From assembly GCA_021651055.1 (NCBI GenBank), contig JAJHOH010000001.1, positions 3,224,001 through 3,288,000 of the forward strand: DNA of 64,000 nt, in the 5' to 3' direction. A program made the translations under genes and the position numbers. Source of the stretch: Candidatus Manganitrophus morganii (GTDB lineage: Bacteria > Nitrospirota > Nitrospiria > SBBL01 > Manganitrophaceae). This document shows, in pieces, positions 21,200 through 51,823 of the stretch. Numbering within the stretch: the stretch's first letter is position 1; the number at the start of each line of letters is the position of its first letter. The notes beneath the pieces are model-generated. The model was not told the DNA's origin. It saw only the letters and a list, made by a program, of their open reading frames with translations, and ran no database searches.

Positions 21200-21228
21200 T
21201 TGACAGTGAACAAATCGGATGATATAAA
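21200..21228 (+). promoter_or_regulatory. Near-consensus sigma-70 promoter for the first riboswitch locus
   Basis: TTGACA at 21200-21205, exactly 17 bases, then TATAAA at 21223-21228. Transcription would start near 21235, about 40 bases before the first aptamer. This is one of the best promoters in the window, and it suggests that control is at the RNA level rather than by weak initiation. Confidence 0.85.
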
Positions 21229-21275: not shown

Positions 21276-21371
21276 CCTTTGCTCAGAGCAAACTCTCCGA
21301 AAGGAGAGGGCGCAGAGCAACGGGGCTAAAGAAGAGACACTCCTCTTCCATGCCCGCCGAGCCGCCAAAGG
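21276..21371 (+). promoter_or_regulatory. GEMM-I riboswitch aptamer, copy 1 (predicted 3',3'-cGAMP-binding, GEMM-Ib)
   Basis: The conserved GEMM-I core is present: CTCAGAGCAAAC, a stem CTCTCC-GAAA-GGAGAG with GAAA tetraloop, GGCGCAGAGC and GGGGCTAAA (tetraloop receptor). A second short arm (GAAGAG / CTCTTC) follows, and the closing stem is CCTTTG / CAAAGG with GCTC / GAGC. Aligned on the V. cholerae Vc2 aptamer, A18 is position 21285 and the nucleotide equivalent to G20 is A at 21287. In established work A at this position characterises the 3',3'-cGAMP-binding subclass. The 3' strand of the closing stem is also the 5' arm of the next terminator. Confidence 0.88.
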
Positions 21372-21394
21372 GAATCCCGTTGGCGGCTTTTTTA
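21361..21394 (+). terminator. Terminator of riboswitch copy 1 (expression platform)
   Basis: GCCGCCAA / TTGGCGGC hairpin followed by TTTTTTATTT. Its 5' arm overlaps CAAAGG, the 3' strand of the aptamer closing stem. Ligand binding should hide it and permit read-through (ON switch). Confidence 0.88.
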
Positions 21395-21451: not shown

Positions 21452-21643
21452 CCTTTGCTCAGAGCAAACCCATCGAAAGGTGGGGACGCAGAGCAACGGG
21501 GCTAAAGAAAGGGTGTAGGGGGTAGGGTATAGGGGGTAGTGAGAGGGGATAGGGTTTGGATTTTCTACACCCTACACCCTGGTTTATCACACCCGATACC
21601 CTTTCCTCTTCGCCTTCTTCCATGCCCGCCGAGCCGCCAAAGG
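21452..21643 (+). promoter_or_regulatory. GEMM-I riboswitch aptamer, copy 2 (predicted cGAMP-binding, with about 100-base arm extension)
   Basis: The same core as copy 1, with A at the Vc2-G20 position (21463). The GAAA stem is CCCATC-GAAA-GGTGGG, compensatory relative to copy 1, so the stem is supported by covariation. The second arm is enlarged by about 100 bases: GAAAGGGT pairs with ACCCTTTC, and the interior holds GGGTGTAGGG-type repeats facing CTACACCCTACACCCTG. The closing stem CCTTTG / CAAAGG is the same as in copy 1. It lies 81 bases after copy 1, in tandem and before the same gene. Confidence 0.87.
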
Positions 21644-21666
21644 ATTTTCTATTTGGCGGCTTTTTT
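21633..21666 (+). terminator. Terminator of riboswitch copy 2
   Basis: GCCGCCAAA / TTTGGCGGC then TTTTTTATTT. The AAAGGAGG ribosome site of the downstream gene begins only a few bases later, so read-through is needed to transcribe the gene. Confidence 0.88.
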
Positions 21667-26357: not shown

Positions 26358-26387
26358 TTGACTCTTAAATTTTAAATGTGTTATATA
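26358..26387 (+). promoter_or_regulatory. Sigma-70-type promoter for the second riboswitch locus
   Basis: TTGACT at 26358-26363, 18 bases, then TATATA at 26382-26387. Transcription would start near 26394, about 60 bases ahead of the third aptamer. Confidence 0.65.
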
Positions 26388-26457: not shown

Positions 26458-26656
26458 CCTTTGCTCAGAGCAAACTTCTCGAAAGGGGAGGACGCAGAGC
26501 AACGGGGCTAAAGAAAGGGTGTAGGGGGTAGGGTATAGGGGGTAGTGAGAGGGGATAGGGTTTGGATTTTTCTACACCCTACACCCTGATTCATCACACC
26601 CGACACCCTTTCCCTTTCCTCTTCACCTTCTTCCATGCCCGCCGAGCCGCCAAAGG
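26458..26656 (+). promoter_or_regulatory. GEMM-I riboswitch aptamer, copy 3 (predicted cGAMP-binding, with arm extension)
   Basis: Core elements are CTCAGAGCAAAC, a GAAA stem CTTCTC / GGGGAG (again compensatory to the other copies), GGACGCAGAGC and GGGGCTAAA. A is at 26469, at the Vc2-G20 position. The second arm carries nearly the same roughly 100-base GGGTGTAGGG-type extension as copy 2. The closing stem is CCTTTG / CAAAGG with GCTC / GAGC. It is the upstream aptamer of the second tandem pair. Confidence 0.87.
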
Positions 26657-26670
26657 AATGGCGGCTTTTT
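26646..26670 (+). terminator. Terminator of riboswitch copy 3
   Basis: GCCGCC / GGCGGC with an 8-base loop followed by TTTTT. The 5' arm overlaps the aptamer closing stem, as in copies 1 and 2. Confidence 0.85.
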
Positions 26671-26736
26671 GGGGAGTCTTTCCGTCGCTCCCCCTCACGG
26701 ACTGAATCAACACTCACCATACATACTCGCATTTGA

Positions 26737-26824
26737 CCTTTGCTCAGAGCAAACCCATCGAAAGGTGGGGACGCAGAGTAACGGGGCTACCGCCATCCGG
26801 CCACGCCCGCCGAGCCGCCAAAGG
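26737..26824 (+). promoter_or_regulatory. GEMM-I riboswitch aptamer, copy 4 (divergent)
   Basis: Conserved CTCAGAGCAAAC with A at 26748, GAAA stem CCCATC / GGTGGG and GGACGCAGAG. The next part then differs from the other copies: GAGTAACGGGGCTACCG replaces GAGCAACGGGGCTAAAG. The CTAAA tetraloop-receptor segment is thus lost or altered. The second arm is short and weak. The closing stem CCTTTG / CAAAGG is kept. A poor A/T hairpin (AAAGGAAA / TTTCCTTT, 26820-26842) takes the place of the GC-rich terminator. It may be a degenerating or differently acting copy. Confidence 0.75.
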
Positions 26825-26862
26825 AAATAGCTCTTTTCCTTTTTCGCGTTTGGAGGTTCGCC

Positions 26863-29800
26863 GTGGCAGATTACCTGAGAAGGTGCAGGCTTCTTCTCGC
26901 CCTTGTTCTTTTTCTCATCCTCAATCATCATACGCTTGCCCTTGCCGGGGAGGCCATCCTGACCTGGGACCCGAACAGCGAAGGAGACCTGGCAGGCTAC
27001 CGGGTCTACGTCGGTCTACTGCCGGGCGTCTACAGCCCTCCGATCGATGTGGGACGGGTGACTTCCTGGACGGTGCCGAACCTGACCGCGGGGCTGACCT
27101 ACCATTTTGCGATCACCGCCTATGATACCGACGGCAACGAGAGCGGTTTTTCGAATGAAGCCCGCAAAACGATCCCTCTGCTAAACGACCTGATTGCGCC
27201 GCTGATCTCGAGTATTACCAACAGCAATCGCACCCTGAGTTCGGCCCTCCTCACCTGGGGCACCGATGAGCCGGCGGATACCCGGATCGAATACGGCACG
27301 ACGACCGCCTACGGGCTGACCACGCCGTTGGTGTCGAGCTTGGTGACCGTGCACAGCCAAACCCTCTCGAATTTACTCCCCGGCACACTCTATCACTATC
27401 GGGTTCTCAGCCGGGATGCGGCGGGCAATCTGGCAACCTCGGCCGATCATGTCTTTACAACATTATCCGATACCACGACGCCGACCGTCCCTGGAAATGT
27501 CAGTGGGGCGGCGCTGTCGACCACTCAGATCAATCTGACCTGGAGCGTTTCCACGGATAACGTCGGGGTGGCCGGCTATCGAATCTATCGCAACGGGGTG
27601 GAGATCGGCGCCCGCAGTGTTCCGACCTTCTCGGATGGGGGACTCACCCCTGATACCCTCTACAGCTATCGGGTGGCGGCCTATGACGCCGCGGGGAATC
27701 TCTCGGCGCAGAGCGCCGCGGCAAGCGTAAGGACATTGGCGCCGGCGGACACCGCCGCGCCGGTGATCTCAGGAATGGGAGCGATCAATATCACCACCGG
27801 CGGAGCCTTGATCAGCTGGAGCACCAATGAACCGTCCGACACGCAGATCCAGTATGGGACCACAACCGCTTTCGGTTCTTTCACCGCGATCGTTCCGACG
27901 CCGGTGACGGCGCACGCGCAGAGCCTGACCGGCCTGCTTCCCGCCACCCTTTATCACTACCGGGTGCGCAGCCGCGATGCGGCGGGAAATTTGGCGGTCT
28001 CCAACAACGGCAGCTTTACCACCGCCGCTCTTCCCGATACCACCCTCCCCTCCGCGCCGACAAACGTCGGGGCGGCCGCCGTCTCGTCTTCACAAGTTCA
28101 GTTGAGTTGGAGCGCCTCGACCGATAACGTCGGGGTCGCCGGCTATCGGATCTATCGCAATGGGGTGCAGGTCGCCAGCAGCACCCTTCCGACCTATCTC
28201 AACACCGGCCTGGCGGCGAACACGGCATATCATTACGCGGTGGCGGCTTATGACGCCGGGGGGAACCTCTCCCCCGCCTCGGCGGCCATTTCCGTCACGA
28301 CCCTCCCTTTGATGCCGACGGTTTCACAGGCGTCGGCTTCCGGCATTACGGCCGCCTCCGCCACCCTCTCCGGGTCGGTCAATCCATCGGGGGCGACCAC
28401 TTCGGCTTGGTTCGAGTATGGGACCACCACGGCTTACGGCAGCAGCACGACCCCGGTGACCCTCTCGGCGGCGAACACGATCTCCGCCGACCTGACCCCC
28501 TTGGCGTCGGGGACCGCCTATCACTTCCGCCTTGTCGCCCGCAATGCGGGGGGAACGGCCTTCGGACCGAACACTTCCTTCAACACGCCGGCCCCTCCGG
28601 CCTCCGCTCCGGCGCCGCCCCCTTCGGGTCCGATCTCCGGCTACAACATGACAGAGGAGCCGTATGCCTGGGCGGAGACTTCGACTCCATTAACATTCAG
28701 CGGAGACGACAACGCGCTTTCCCTCTCGCTTCCATTCTCCTTTCCTTTTTACGGCCAGAGTTATCAGCAGCTCTATATTTCCACAAACGGATTGCTCACC
28801 TTCGGGACGGCCAACACCGCTTACGTTCCCCAGCCGGTACAGAACCCCGTTCCGCCGAATGCCTTCATCGCCCCCTTCTGGCGGGATCTTTATGTCGGAC
28901 TGCGGCAGATCAGCATTGCTTCTTCGGATTCGGAGTTCGTGATTTCCTTCAACGGGGTCAGGGACCTCTGCTGCAGCACGACCCACACCTTCCAGGTGAT
29001 TCTCCGTCCAGACGGAACGATTCTCTTGCAGTATGGGGAGATTGTTTTAAATGTTCCAACCACATTCGGCATTGAAAACCAAGACGGCAGCGCCGGGGTG
29101 CCGCTCCTCTCTGTTACCGCGAACACCGCTTTCCGCTTCACCCCCAATACCGCGCAGGCTCCCCCGCCGGCGACTGATGCGTCGGCGCCGTCGGCGCCGG
29201 CGGGCCTTGCAGCGACGCCCGTCTCCTCCAGCCAAATCAATCTGGCCTGGAACCCATCAACCGACAACGTGGGGGTCTCCGGTTATCGGGTCTACCGCAA
29301 CGGCCTCCAGGTGGGAACGACGACGGTGACGAGTTACGCCAATCCCGGTTTAGGGGCAGATACGACTTACAACTATACCGTCGCCGCTTTTGACGCGGAG
29401 GGAAACCTTTCCGCACAGAGCGCGGGGGCGAGTGCGCGCACGCTGCCGCCCCCCGATACCACCGCTCCGGTGATCTCTGCTGTGGCGGCGGGGAGCATCA
29501 CCACCGGCGGGGCGTTGATCAGTTGGAGTACGAACGAGCCGTCCGACACCCAGGTGGAGTATGGGACGACCACCGCCTACGGCAGCGCCACCCCGATTAT
29601 CTCGACCTTGGTCACCGCCCACTCTCGGAGTCTGTCGGGTCTGCTTCCTTCCACCCTCTATCACTATCGGGTGCGCAGCCGGGATGCGGCGGGCAATCTG
29701 GCGGTCTCAAACAACGGCAGCTTTACCACGGCGGCCGCGCCCGATACGTCCTCGCCGTCGGCGCCGGCGGGCCTGACAGCCGCCGCCGTCTCCTCCAGCC

Positions 29801-30612
29801 AAATCAATCTGGCCTGGAACCCATCAACCGACAACGTCGGGGTCTCCGGTTATCGGGTCTACCGCAACGGCCTCCAGGTGGGAACGACGACGGTGACGAG
29901 TTTCTCAAATACCGGCTTGACGGCCGGTACGGTTTACAGTTACTCCGTATCCGCTTTTGATGCGGCGGGGAATGCCTCGGCCCAGAGCGCCGCGATGAGC
30001 GTCGCCACACCGGCCGCGAGTCAAAGCGCCACGGTGGCGATCAGTCCGGCCGCCGATACCTACCTAAACGTCGACGCCGGGGTCAACAGTACGGAGCCGA
30101 CGCTGAACACCTACACCTGGCCGGCGAATCGGATCGCCAATACGGTGCTGATGAAGTTTAATCTTTCCGGCATTCCGGCCGGTGCCATCATTGAGAGCGC
30201 GACGCTCAACCTCTCGCTGGTGGAGGCGGATACGGAGGCGGAGAGCACTTATACCGTCGCCGTACATAAGATGGCCAACAAGAACCCGGATTTGACCCGG
30301 GCGAACGGGTATACCTATGATGGCGTGAACGGTTGGACGGCGAATGCCTGCTGCGACAGCAACGTTCCGCTGGCACAGGCGGATATTTCATCGGCCCATG
30401 ATACCAAGGCGATCGACAAAGTGCTGGGGAGAAAAAGCTGGAATATTACGATCATGGTACAGCAGTGGATCAATACCCCCTTGACCAACTACGGGCTGCT
30501 GCTGAATTCCGATCCGACAAAAGGAGCCGACCGTTACCGCACTTTCGCCAGCATGGAACATCCGACCGCCTCACTGAGGCCGTCCTTGAGCATCACCTAT
30601 CGGATGCCGTAA
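26863..30612 (+). CDS. Very large exported fibronectin type III / nidogen-like / DNRLRE protein (1249 aa)
   Basis: GGAGG (26852-26856) precedes GTG 26863, and the signal peptide is LLLALVLFLILNHHTLALAG. FN3 and purple-acid-phosphatase-like FN3 modules alternate from about residue 30 to 570. A different beta-rich module at about 585-770 reads LPFSFPFYGQSYQQLYISTN, GLLTFG, IAPFWRDLYVG and IENQDG, resembling nidogen-like (NIDO-type) or C-type sandwich domains. Further FN3-type modules follow, and a DNRLRE domain ends the protein (about 1045-1249) with SPAADTYLNVDAG and RTFASMEHPTA. No enzymatic motif is seen. It is a paralogue of 21688-24354, with the same FN3 repeats, the same C-terminal domain and the same type of tandem riboswitch leader. 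Confidence 0.87.
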   Translation: MADYLRRCRLLLALVLFLILNHHTLALAGEAILTWDPNSEGDLAGYRVYVGLLPGVYSPPIDVGRVTSWTVPNLTAGLTYHFAITAYDTDGNESGFSNEARKTIPLLNDLIAPLISSITNSNRTLSSALLTWGTDEPADTRIEYGTTTAYGLTTPLVSSLVTVHSQTLSNLLPGTLYHYRVLSRDAAGNLATSADHVFTTLSDTTTPTVPGNVSGAALSTTQINLTWSVSTDNVGVAGYRIYRNGVEIGARSVPTFSDGGLTPDTLYSYRVAAYDAAGNLSAQSAAASVRTLAPADTAAPVISGMGAINITTGGALISWSTNEPSDTQIQYGTTTAFGSFTAIVPTPVTAHAQSLTGLLPATLYHYRVRSRDAAGNLAVSNNGSFTTAALPDTTLPSAPTNVGAAAVSSSQVQLSWSASTDNVGVAGYRIYRNGVQVASSTLPTYLNTGLAANTAYHYAVAAYDAGGNLSPASAAISVTTLPLMPTVSQASASGITAASATLSGSVNPSGATTSAWFEYGTTTAYGSSTTPVTLSAANTISADLTPLASGTAYHFRLVARNAGGTAFGPNTSFNTPAPPASAPAPPPSGPISGYNMTEEPYAWAETSTPLTFSGDDNALSLSLPFSFPFYGQSYQQLYISTNGLLTFGTANTAYVPQPVQNPVPPNAFIAPFWRDLYVGLRQISIASSDSEFVISFNGVRDLCCSTTHTFQVILRPDGTILLQYGEIVLNVPTTFGIENQDGSAGVPLLSVTANTAFRFTPNTAQAPPPATDASAPSAPAGLAATPVSSSQINLAWNPSTDNVGVSGYRVYRNGLQVGTTTVTSYANPGLGADTTYNYTVAAFDAEGNLSAQSAGASARTLPPPDTTAPVISAVAAGSITTGGALISWSTNEPSDTQVEYGTTTAYGSATPIISTLVTAHSRSLSGLLPSTLYHYRVRSRDAAGNLAVSNNGSFTTAAAPDTSSPSAPAGLTAAAVSSSQINLAWNPSTDNVGVSGYRVYRNGLQVGTTTVTSFSNTGLTAGTVYSYSVSAFDAAGNASAQSAAMSVATPAASQSATVAISPAADTYLNVDAGVNSTEPTLNTYTWPANRIANTVLMKFNLSGIPAGAIIESATLNLSLVEADTEAESTYTVAVHKMANKNPDLTRANGYTYDGVNGWTANACCDSNVPLAQADISSAHDTKAIDKVLGRKSWNITIMVQQWINTPLTNYGLLLNSDPTKGADRYRTFASMEHPTASLRPSLSITYRMP

Positions 30613-51746: not shown

Positions 51747-51823
51747 GCCCCCGTAGCTCAGGTGGATAGAGCAGCGGTTTCCTAAACCGTTTGCCGGGTG
51801 TTCAAATCACCCCGGGGGCACCA
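51747..51823 (+). tRNA. tRNA-Arg (anticodon CCT)
   Basis: Folds as a standard cloverleaf: acceptor GCCCCCG / CGGGGGC, D arm GCTC / GAGC, anticodon stem GCGGT / ACCGT with loop TTCCTAA (anticodon CCT at 51781-51783), and T arm GGGTG / CACCC with loop TTCAAAT. The CCA end is encoded (51821-51823). It reads AGG codons. Confidence 0.97.

Follow-up and report, generated by a model that had tools for sequence, protein, structure and literature searches.

Tandem GEMM-Ib riboswitches in the leader of an exported FN3/DNRLRE gene of Candidatus Manganitrophus morganii: probable ON control by cGAMP at transcription and then at translation

Introduction

The closest described counterparts of the locus considered here are the GEMM-Ib riboswitches of Geobacter, which combine the GEMM-I fold with adenine at position 20 (A20), occur in tandem (e.g. 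upstream of OmcAHG), act as terminator-based ON switches and go together with Hypr GGDEF enzymes (PMC6456294). A Geobacter A20 aptamer is ~1200-fold selective for cGAMP, and in the GEMM-Ib aptamer Gmet_0970 the A20G replacement turns selectivity from cGAMP to c-di-GMP (PMC6456294). The cGAMP-class aptamers can also bind c-di-GMP, via a protonated adenine (PMC9262584), and A20 is a position of selectivity rather than a hard filter. Tandem c-di-GMP-I riboswitches (347 doublets and 12 triplets) likewise place two GEMM-I aptamers before one gene, with a pseudo-cooperative response expected, and in Desulfobacca acetoxidans a doublet of AdoCbl and c-AMP-GMP aptamers, near c-di-GMP aptamers, forms a two-input leader (PMC9481103).

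How does a tandem GEMM pair of Candidatus Manganitrophus morganii compare with these systems? The genus Manganitrophus belongs to the Nitrospirota, and its species live as Mn(II)-oxidising chemolithoautotrophs (PMC9040806). The window is the whole stretch of 64,000 nucleotides that was analysed (G000:C1:3224001-3288000), taken from the 4.29 Mb single-contig genome designated G000. Unlike the Geobacter riboswitches, those of Manganitrophus occur in the Nitrospirota, precede FN3/DNRLRE genes, can carry large P3 inserts and have a second platform that is predicted to be translational. They differ from the c-di-GMP-I tandems in having A20 instead of G20 and a last aptamer that seems to act on translation; and, in contrast to the Desulfobacca doublet, mixed doublets of Manganitrophus bring c-di-GMP-type and cGAMP-type inputs together in a single leader. 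We consider it probable that positions 26458-26842 hold a tandem GEMM-Ib pair in the leader of an exported FN3/DNRLRE gene, through which cGAMP turns expression ON at transcription and then at translation.

The two leaders and their genes

The second pair and its gene consist of the following elements:

26358..26386 (+), promoter-like element: -35 TTGACT at 26358-26363, 17-nt spacer, -10 TTATAT at 26381-26386
26458..26656 (+), aptamer 3 (GEMM-I), first of the second pair: A20 at 26469; P1 26458-26463 with 26651-26656; 31.5 bits
26514..26630 (+), P3 insert of aptamer 3: imperfect inverted repeat, a predicted extension of the P3 stem
26645..26670 (+), intrinsic terminator of aptamer 3: GCCGCC...GGCGGC and a T run, using the P1 3' strand
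26737..26824 (+), aptamer 4 (GEMM-I), second of the second pair: A20 at 26748; P1 26737-26742 with 26819-26824; RF01051 56.1 bits
26800..26868 (+), predicted translational platform: 3' part of aptamer 4 against the Shine-Dalgarno sequence GGAGG (26852-26856) and the GTG start at 26863 when P1 is absent
26863..30612 (+), FN3/DNRLRE gene, 1249 aa: hydrophobic N-terminus, FN3 repeats, one C-terminal DNRLRE domain

The first pair and the paralogous gene comprise:

21200..21228 (+), promoter-like TTGACA-17-TATAAA: kept in the orthologues of G002 and G004; negative in the strict consensus scan
21276..21394 (+), aptamer 1 (GEMM-I) and terminator: A20 at 21287; RF01051 62.8 bits; P1 and terminator mutually exclusive
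21452..21666 (+), aptamer 2 (GEMM-I) with P3 insert 21508-21617 and terminator: A20 at 21463; 34.3 bits
21688..24354 (+), paralogous gene, 888 aa: FN3 and two DNRLRE domains

The Rfam model RF01051 (GEMM-I; gathering score 35 bits) matches aptamer 1 at 21277-21369 (62.8 bits, E 6.5e-10) and aptamer 4 at 26738-26822 (56.1 bits, E 2.9e-8). In the genome search aptamers 2 and 3, starting at 21453 and 26459, remain below the gathering score (34.3 and 31.5 bits) because each has an insert of ~110 nt within P3; their counterparts in another Manganitrophus species (G002) are insert-free and score above it, and the counterpart of aptamer 2 in G004 is insert-free too. Position 20 is A in all four aptamers, which is the sequence mark of GEMM-Ib: they belong to the cGAMP class, with cGAMP as the ligand that their sequence predicts. 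A preliminary description of this DNA had reported a second promoter, two more aptamers of the same class and a second large exported FN3/DNRLRE gene, and all three stand. The 1249-aa protein has FN3 domains and a DNRLRE match above the curated cut-off (signal peptides were judged by eye), and the 888-aa protein is ~70% identical to it over 483 aa. DNRLRE (NF033679) scores of 104.6 and 60.5 bits compare with a cut-off of 34, and the three such domains detected in the genome are all encoded by these two FN3 genes. The proteins may be located at the cell surface, and their domain content suggests a role in attachment.

Four A20 aptamers within 5.6 kb had been described as an unusual concentration pointing to a dedicated regulon. 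Their number and their A20 residues are as described, but the aptamers at 21453, 26738 and genome position 603519 hardly differ over their initial ~50 nt, and the cluster is therefore best read as the duplication of a leader-gene unit, not as independent recruitment.

The P3 insert has four near-complete copies in the genome (window 21508-21617 and 26514-26630; genome 603574 and 1017946), all within P3 of A20 aptamers, together with scattered shorter partial copies. A sister copy of the 26514-26630 insert folds better than its shuffles (z -3.0). A role for the insert within the sensor was considered and rejected, given its absence from G002 and the partial copies across the genome. Two other leaders of the genus (L190 and L193) have longer P3 sequences unrelated to the ~110-nt insert; P3 therefore seems to be insert-tolerant.

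A strict consensus scan reported neither promoters nor leader terminators at either leader; by inspection, the -10 hexamers deviate from the scan rule and the terminator stems absorb part of the T run. Leader promoters were judged by conservation instead, and leader terminators by folding. Sequence comparison shows the promoter before the second pair (TTGACT-17-TTATAT/TTATAA) to be common to five Manganitrophus genomes; its hexamers are retained in all five, and the flanking sequence has diverged in two of these.

Predicted switching by aptamers 3 and 4

In aptamers 1-3 the 5' arm of the terminator is the P1 3' strand. The terminator forms with a probability of ~1 in free folding, which drops to 0 once P1 is enforced, and the same values are obtained for the A20 leaders L075, L072, L191 and L198. 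Since P1 is thus predicted to exclude the terminator, a ligand-stabilised P1 should yield read-through, the behaviour of an ON switch. At low cGAMP the P1 3' strand of aptamer 3 would fold into the intrinsic terminator; binding of cGAMP would stabilise P1 and allow transcription to continue.

What might aptamer 4 do? Aptamer 3 has its terminator; after aptamer 4 the GCCGCC...GGCGGC-T element that follows the other three is absent, in the window and in the orthologous leaders L181, L182 and L184. In the free folds of these four orthologues the 3' part of aptamer 4 pairs with the Shine-Dalgarno sequence and the GTG start. The Shine-Dalgarno G residues are near-fully paired and the bulged A is free; the first two of these G residues are 0.20-0.26 unpaired in L184, and in L182 the start codon is 0.4 unpaired at its middle base. 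With aptamer 4 enforced, the start becomes 0.85-0.91 unpaired in the window and part-exposed in the other three, and the Shine-Dalgarno sequence is released only partially. This translational model is built from minimum-energy folds, with a gap of ~17 kcal/mol to overcome. Without ligand, the 3' part of aptamer 4 would mask the Shine-Dalgarno sequence and the start codon, and ligand on aptamer 4 would free both.

Aptamer 3 could be the sole regulator and aptamer 4 (26737-26824) a decaying duplicate that no longer switches, as its missing terminator in all four orthologues and an alteration in P3 might suggest: the expected tetraloop-receptor site reads CUACC/CCACG instead of the CUAAA/CCAUG of the other copies, and the affinity of aptamer 4 may be reduced as a result. 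Yet aptamer 4 still scores 56 bits, its P1, P2 and A20 are preserved in G002, G003 and G004, and its 3' part is complementary to the Shine-Dalgarno sequence and start in each of the four orthologues; decay is unlikely, if by no means far-fetched. We give very little credence to aptamer 4 being a terminator switch like the others, working through a weaker hairpin (AAAGGAAA...UUUCCUUU) ahead of the Shine-Dalgarno sequence, since this A/U hairpin with its short U run is found in the window and L181 but is missing in L182 and L184, where the pairing with the Shine-Dalgarno sequence and start is retained. According to the preferred two-level reading both switches would be ON, aptamer 3 at transcription and then aptamer 4 at translation, and a steeper response would be expected than from a single switch. 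Because aptamer 4 seems to act on translation start, measurement of read-through across each terminator, as first proposed for this locus, would miss it.

Candidate cGAMP synthases and conservation of A20 aptamers

The absence of a cGAMP synthase, together with a lack of riboswitch conservation in close relatives, had been named as grounds for giving up cGAMP regulation; neither was borne out. The genome encodes 33 GGDEF domains, and the Hypr position (PleD D344) was examined in 30: it is Ser in two and Asn in one, and in two others the motif was not resolved. Both Ser proteins are GAF-GGDEF proteins with an intact GGDEF motif, P0001 (genome 2559919-2561070; NDQYGHLMGS) and P0002 (673004-674107; NDQFGHLTGS). 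Like Geobacter GacA (GSU1658 / Gmet_1914), they have Ser at the D344 position and the GGDEF motif, and a GAF domain, which also appears in the name of the GacA structure entry 6d9m. That structure is the best match of both among solved structures, clearly for P0001 (172.8 bits for GmGacA, Ser aligned to Ser, against 124.5 for the next chain) and narrowly for P0002 (92.6 versus 85 bits). The nine nearest named homologues of P0001 (at least 53% identity, all Nitrospirota) have Ser without exception, the closest records being from Candidatus Manganitrophaceae and Manganitrophus, and the more distant readable ones have Asp, except for two P0002-like Manganitrophus copies. P0001 and P0002 are candidate Hypr-type cGAMP synthases, and one or both would supply the cGAMP; in contrast to GacA, there are two such proteins in the Manganitrophus genome, with predicted activity. 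The Asn protein is encoded at L021 (G000:C1:903923; NDTHGHLMGN). In Manganitrophus sp. GAC4 (G004:C1:1813052-1814205) the GacA-like gene is split by a frame change and contains one in-frame TGA; the gene is either broken or wrongly sequenced.

The riboswitch doublet before FN3 genes is conserved in the genus: G002 and G004 each have both FN3 genes with the A20 aptamers, G003 has the second gene with its doublet, and G005 has one doublet and one further A20 aptamer upstream of related FN3 genes. Across 116 genomes of the class, a strict A20 pattern matched 14, all of which belong to the 29 genomes encoding a GacA-like protein (at least 53% identity); it matched none of the other 87 and had no match in 15 of the 29. 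The one-sided p of this co-occurrence is 1.9e-10, uncorrected for shared ancestry. Beyond Manganitrophus, the placement of A20 aptamers upstream of FN3 genes is seen in G015, G016, G019 (three copies) and G038 (two copies); by family, it occurs in three others of the class.

Might the A20 aptamers answer in the cell mainly to c-di-GMP from ordinary GGDEF proteins, with A20 merely tuning affinity? Most of the 33 GGDEF domains have the canonical Asp, and the protonated adenine allows cGAMP-class aptamers to bind c-di-GMP (PMC9262584). We nevertheless think this improbable, in view of the selectivity of the Geobacter A20 aptamer (PMC6456294), the finding of A20 aptamers solely where a GacA-like protein is found, and the presence in the same genome of G20 aptamers that precede related genes, which suggests that the two classes are kept distinct. 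cGAMP remains the ligand that we favour for the window aptamers.

Mixed G20-A20 leaders

Control of the FN3 genes is not purely of the cGAMP type. One FN3 paralogue (L071a) is preceded by a G20, c-di-GMP-type, aptamer alone, and another, of 1322 aa, has at L072 (G000:C1:1017732-1018140) a G20 aptamer and, ~160 nt farther downstream, an A20 aptamer; both have terminators of their own. The five loci with the G20-then-A20 arrangement (L072, L186, L190, L193, L194) belong to four of the six Manganitrophus species, and the order is the same at each; outside the window's genome these loci are in G003, G004 and, twice, G005. The reverse order was not found among 41 relatives, and no further real case of G20-then-A20 was recognised outside the genus among 269 genomes of the class: two matches were rejected since the GEMM core is absent from them, and a reversed control pattern matched a comparable number of genomes, three. 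In the phylum of Desulfobotulus, 26 of 395 genomes gave pattern matches, but the printed sequences all lacked a GEMM core. The tandem-riboswitch catalogue of 2022 has no pair of c-di-GMP-type and cGAMP-type aptamers (PMC9481103).

In truncated transcripts of the mixed doublets the GGGC of the binding pocket is paired with the 5' arm of the terminator (a 4-bp GGGC/GCCC pairing), and on this weak support their G20 aptamers lean towards being OFF switches. A clearer case than the mixed doublets is the G20 aptamer before a lipoprotein-like gene at L074 (G000:C1:1935127), whose free fold forms an 8-bp antiterminator, which suggests a c-di-GMP OFF switch. If the G20 aptamer is indeed OFF and the A20 aptamer ON, the mixed leader would be a two-signal RNA gate, 'NOT c-di-GMP AND cGAMP', that reports the balance of both cyclic dinucleotides; we put this forward tentatively, as a reading that is a little more likely to be wrong than right.

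Discussion

The proposal of a dedicated cGAMP-regulated surface-protein regulon gains from the A20 tandems, their conservation in the genus, the Hypr candidates and the co-occurrence of A20 aptamers with GacA-like proteins, but "dedicated" does not hold. In the window's genome one A20 aptamer heads an operon for two small exported proteins, a TPR protein and a DUF1302 protein (TPR/beta-barrel). In G003, another Manganitrophus species, an A20 riboswitch lies directly 5' of a gene whose product carries 16 CxxCH haem motifs (L191:2249-3707), and in G022 and G034 A20 aptamers are upstream of 14-, 12- and 7-heme cytochrome genes. The regulon thus extends beyond surface proteins. With the 16-heme protein of G003 as query, no cytochrome under A20 control was found in the window's genome.

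The cGAMP pathway known from iron-reducing Geobacter probably operates in another phylum too. A Geobacter-type pathway of Hypr GGDEF and GEMM-Ib would extend across several families of the Nitrospirota class, the Mn(II)-oxidising genus included, and would probably act on surface proteins and multiheme cytochromes. Whether cGAMP is a general signal for mineral life or a peculiarity of Geobacter thus becomes a testable question, and the mixed c-di-GMP/cGAMP leaders would let the cross-talk of the two messengers be read in one RNA.

Three minor observations concern the same genome. FN3 paralogues at L071:3478-5718 and L072:2634-6602 have tails without an NCBIfam match, which are Gly-rich/Cys, hydrophobic and basic and resemble a C-terminal anchoring signal. 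A GEMM match of 47.2 bits at L073 (G000:C1:1112713) has GAGCTACCC replacing the usual GAGCAAAC. The window also contains a tRNA gene at 51747-51820 (64.5 bits).
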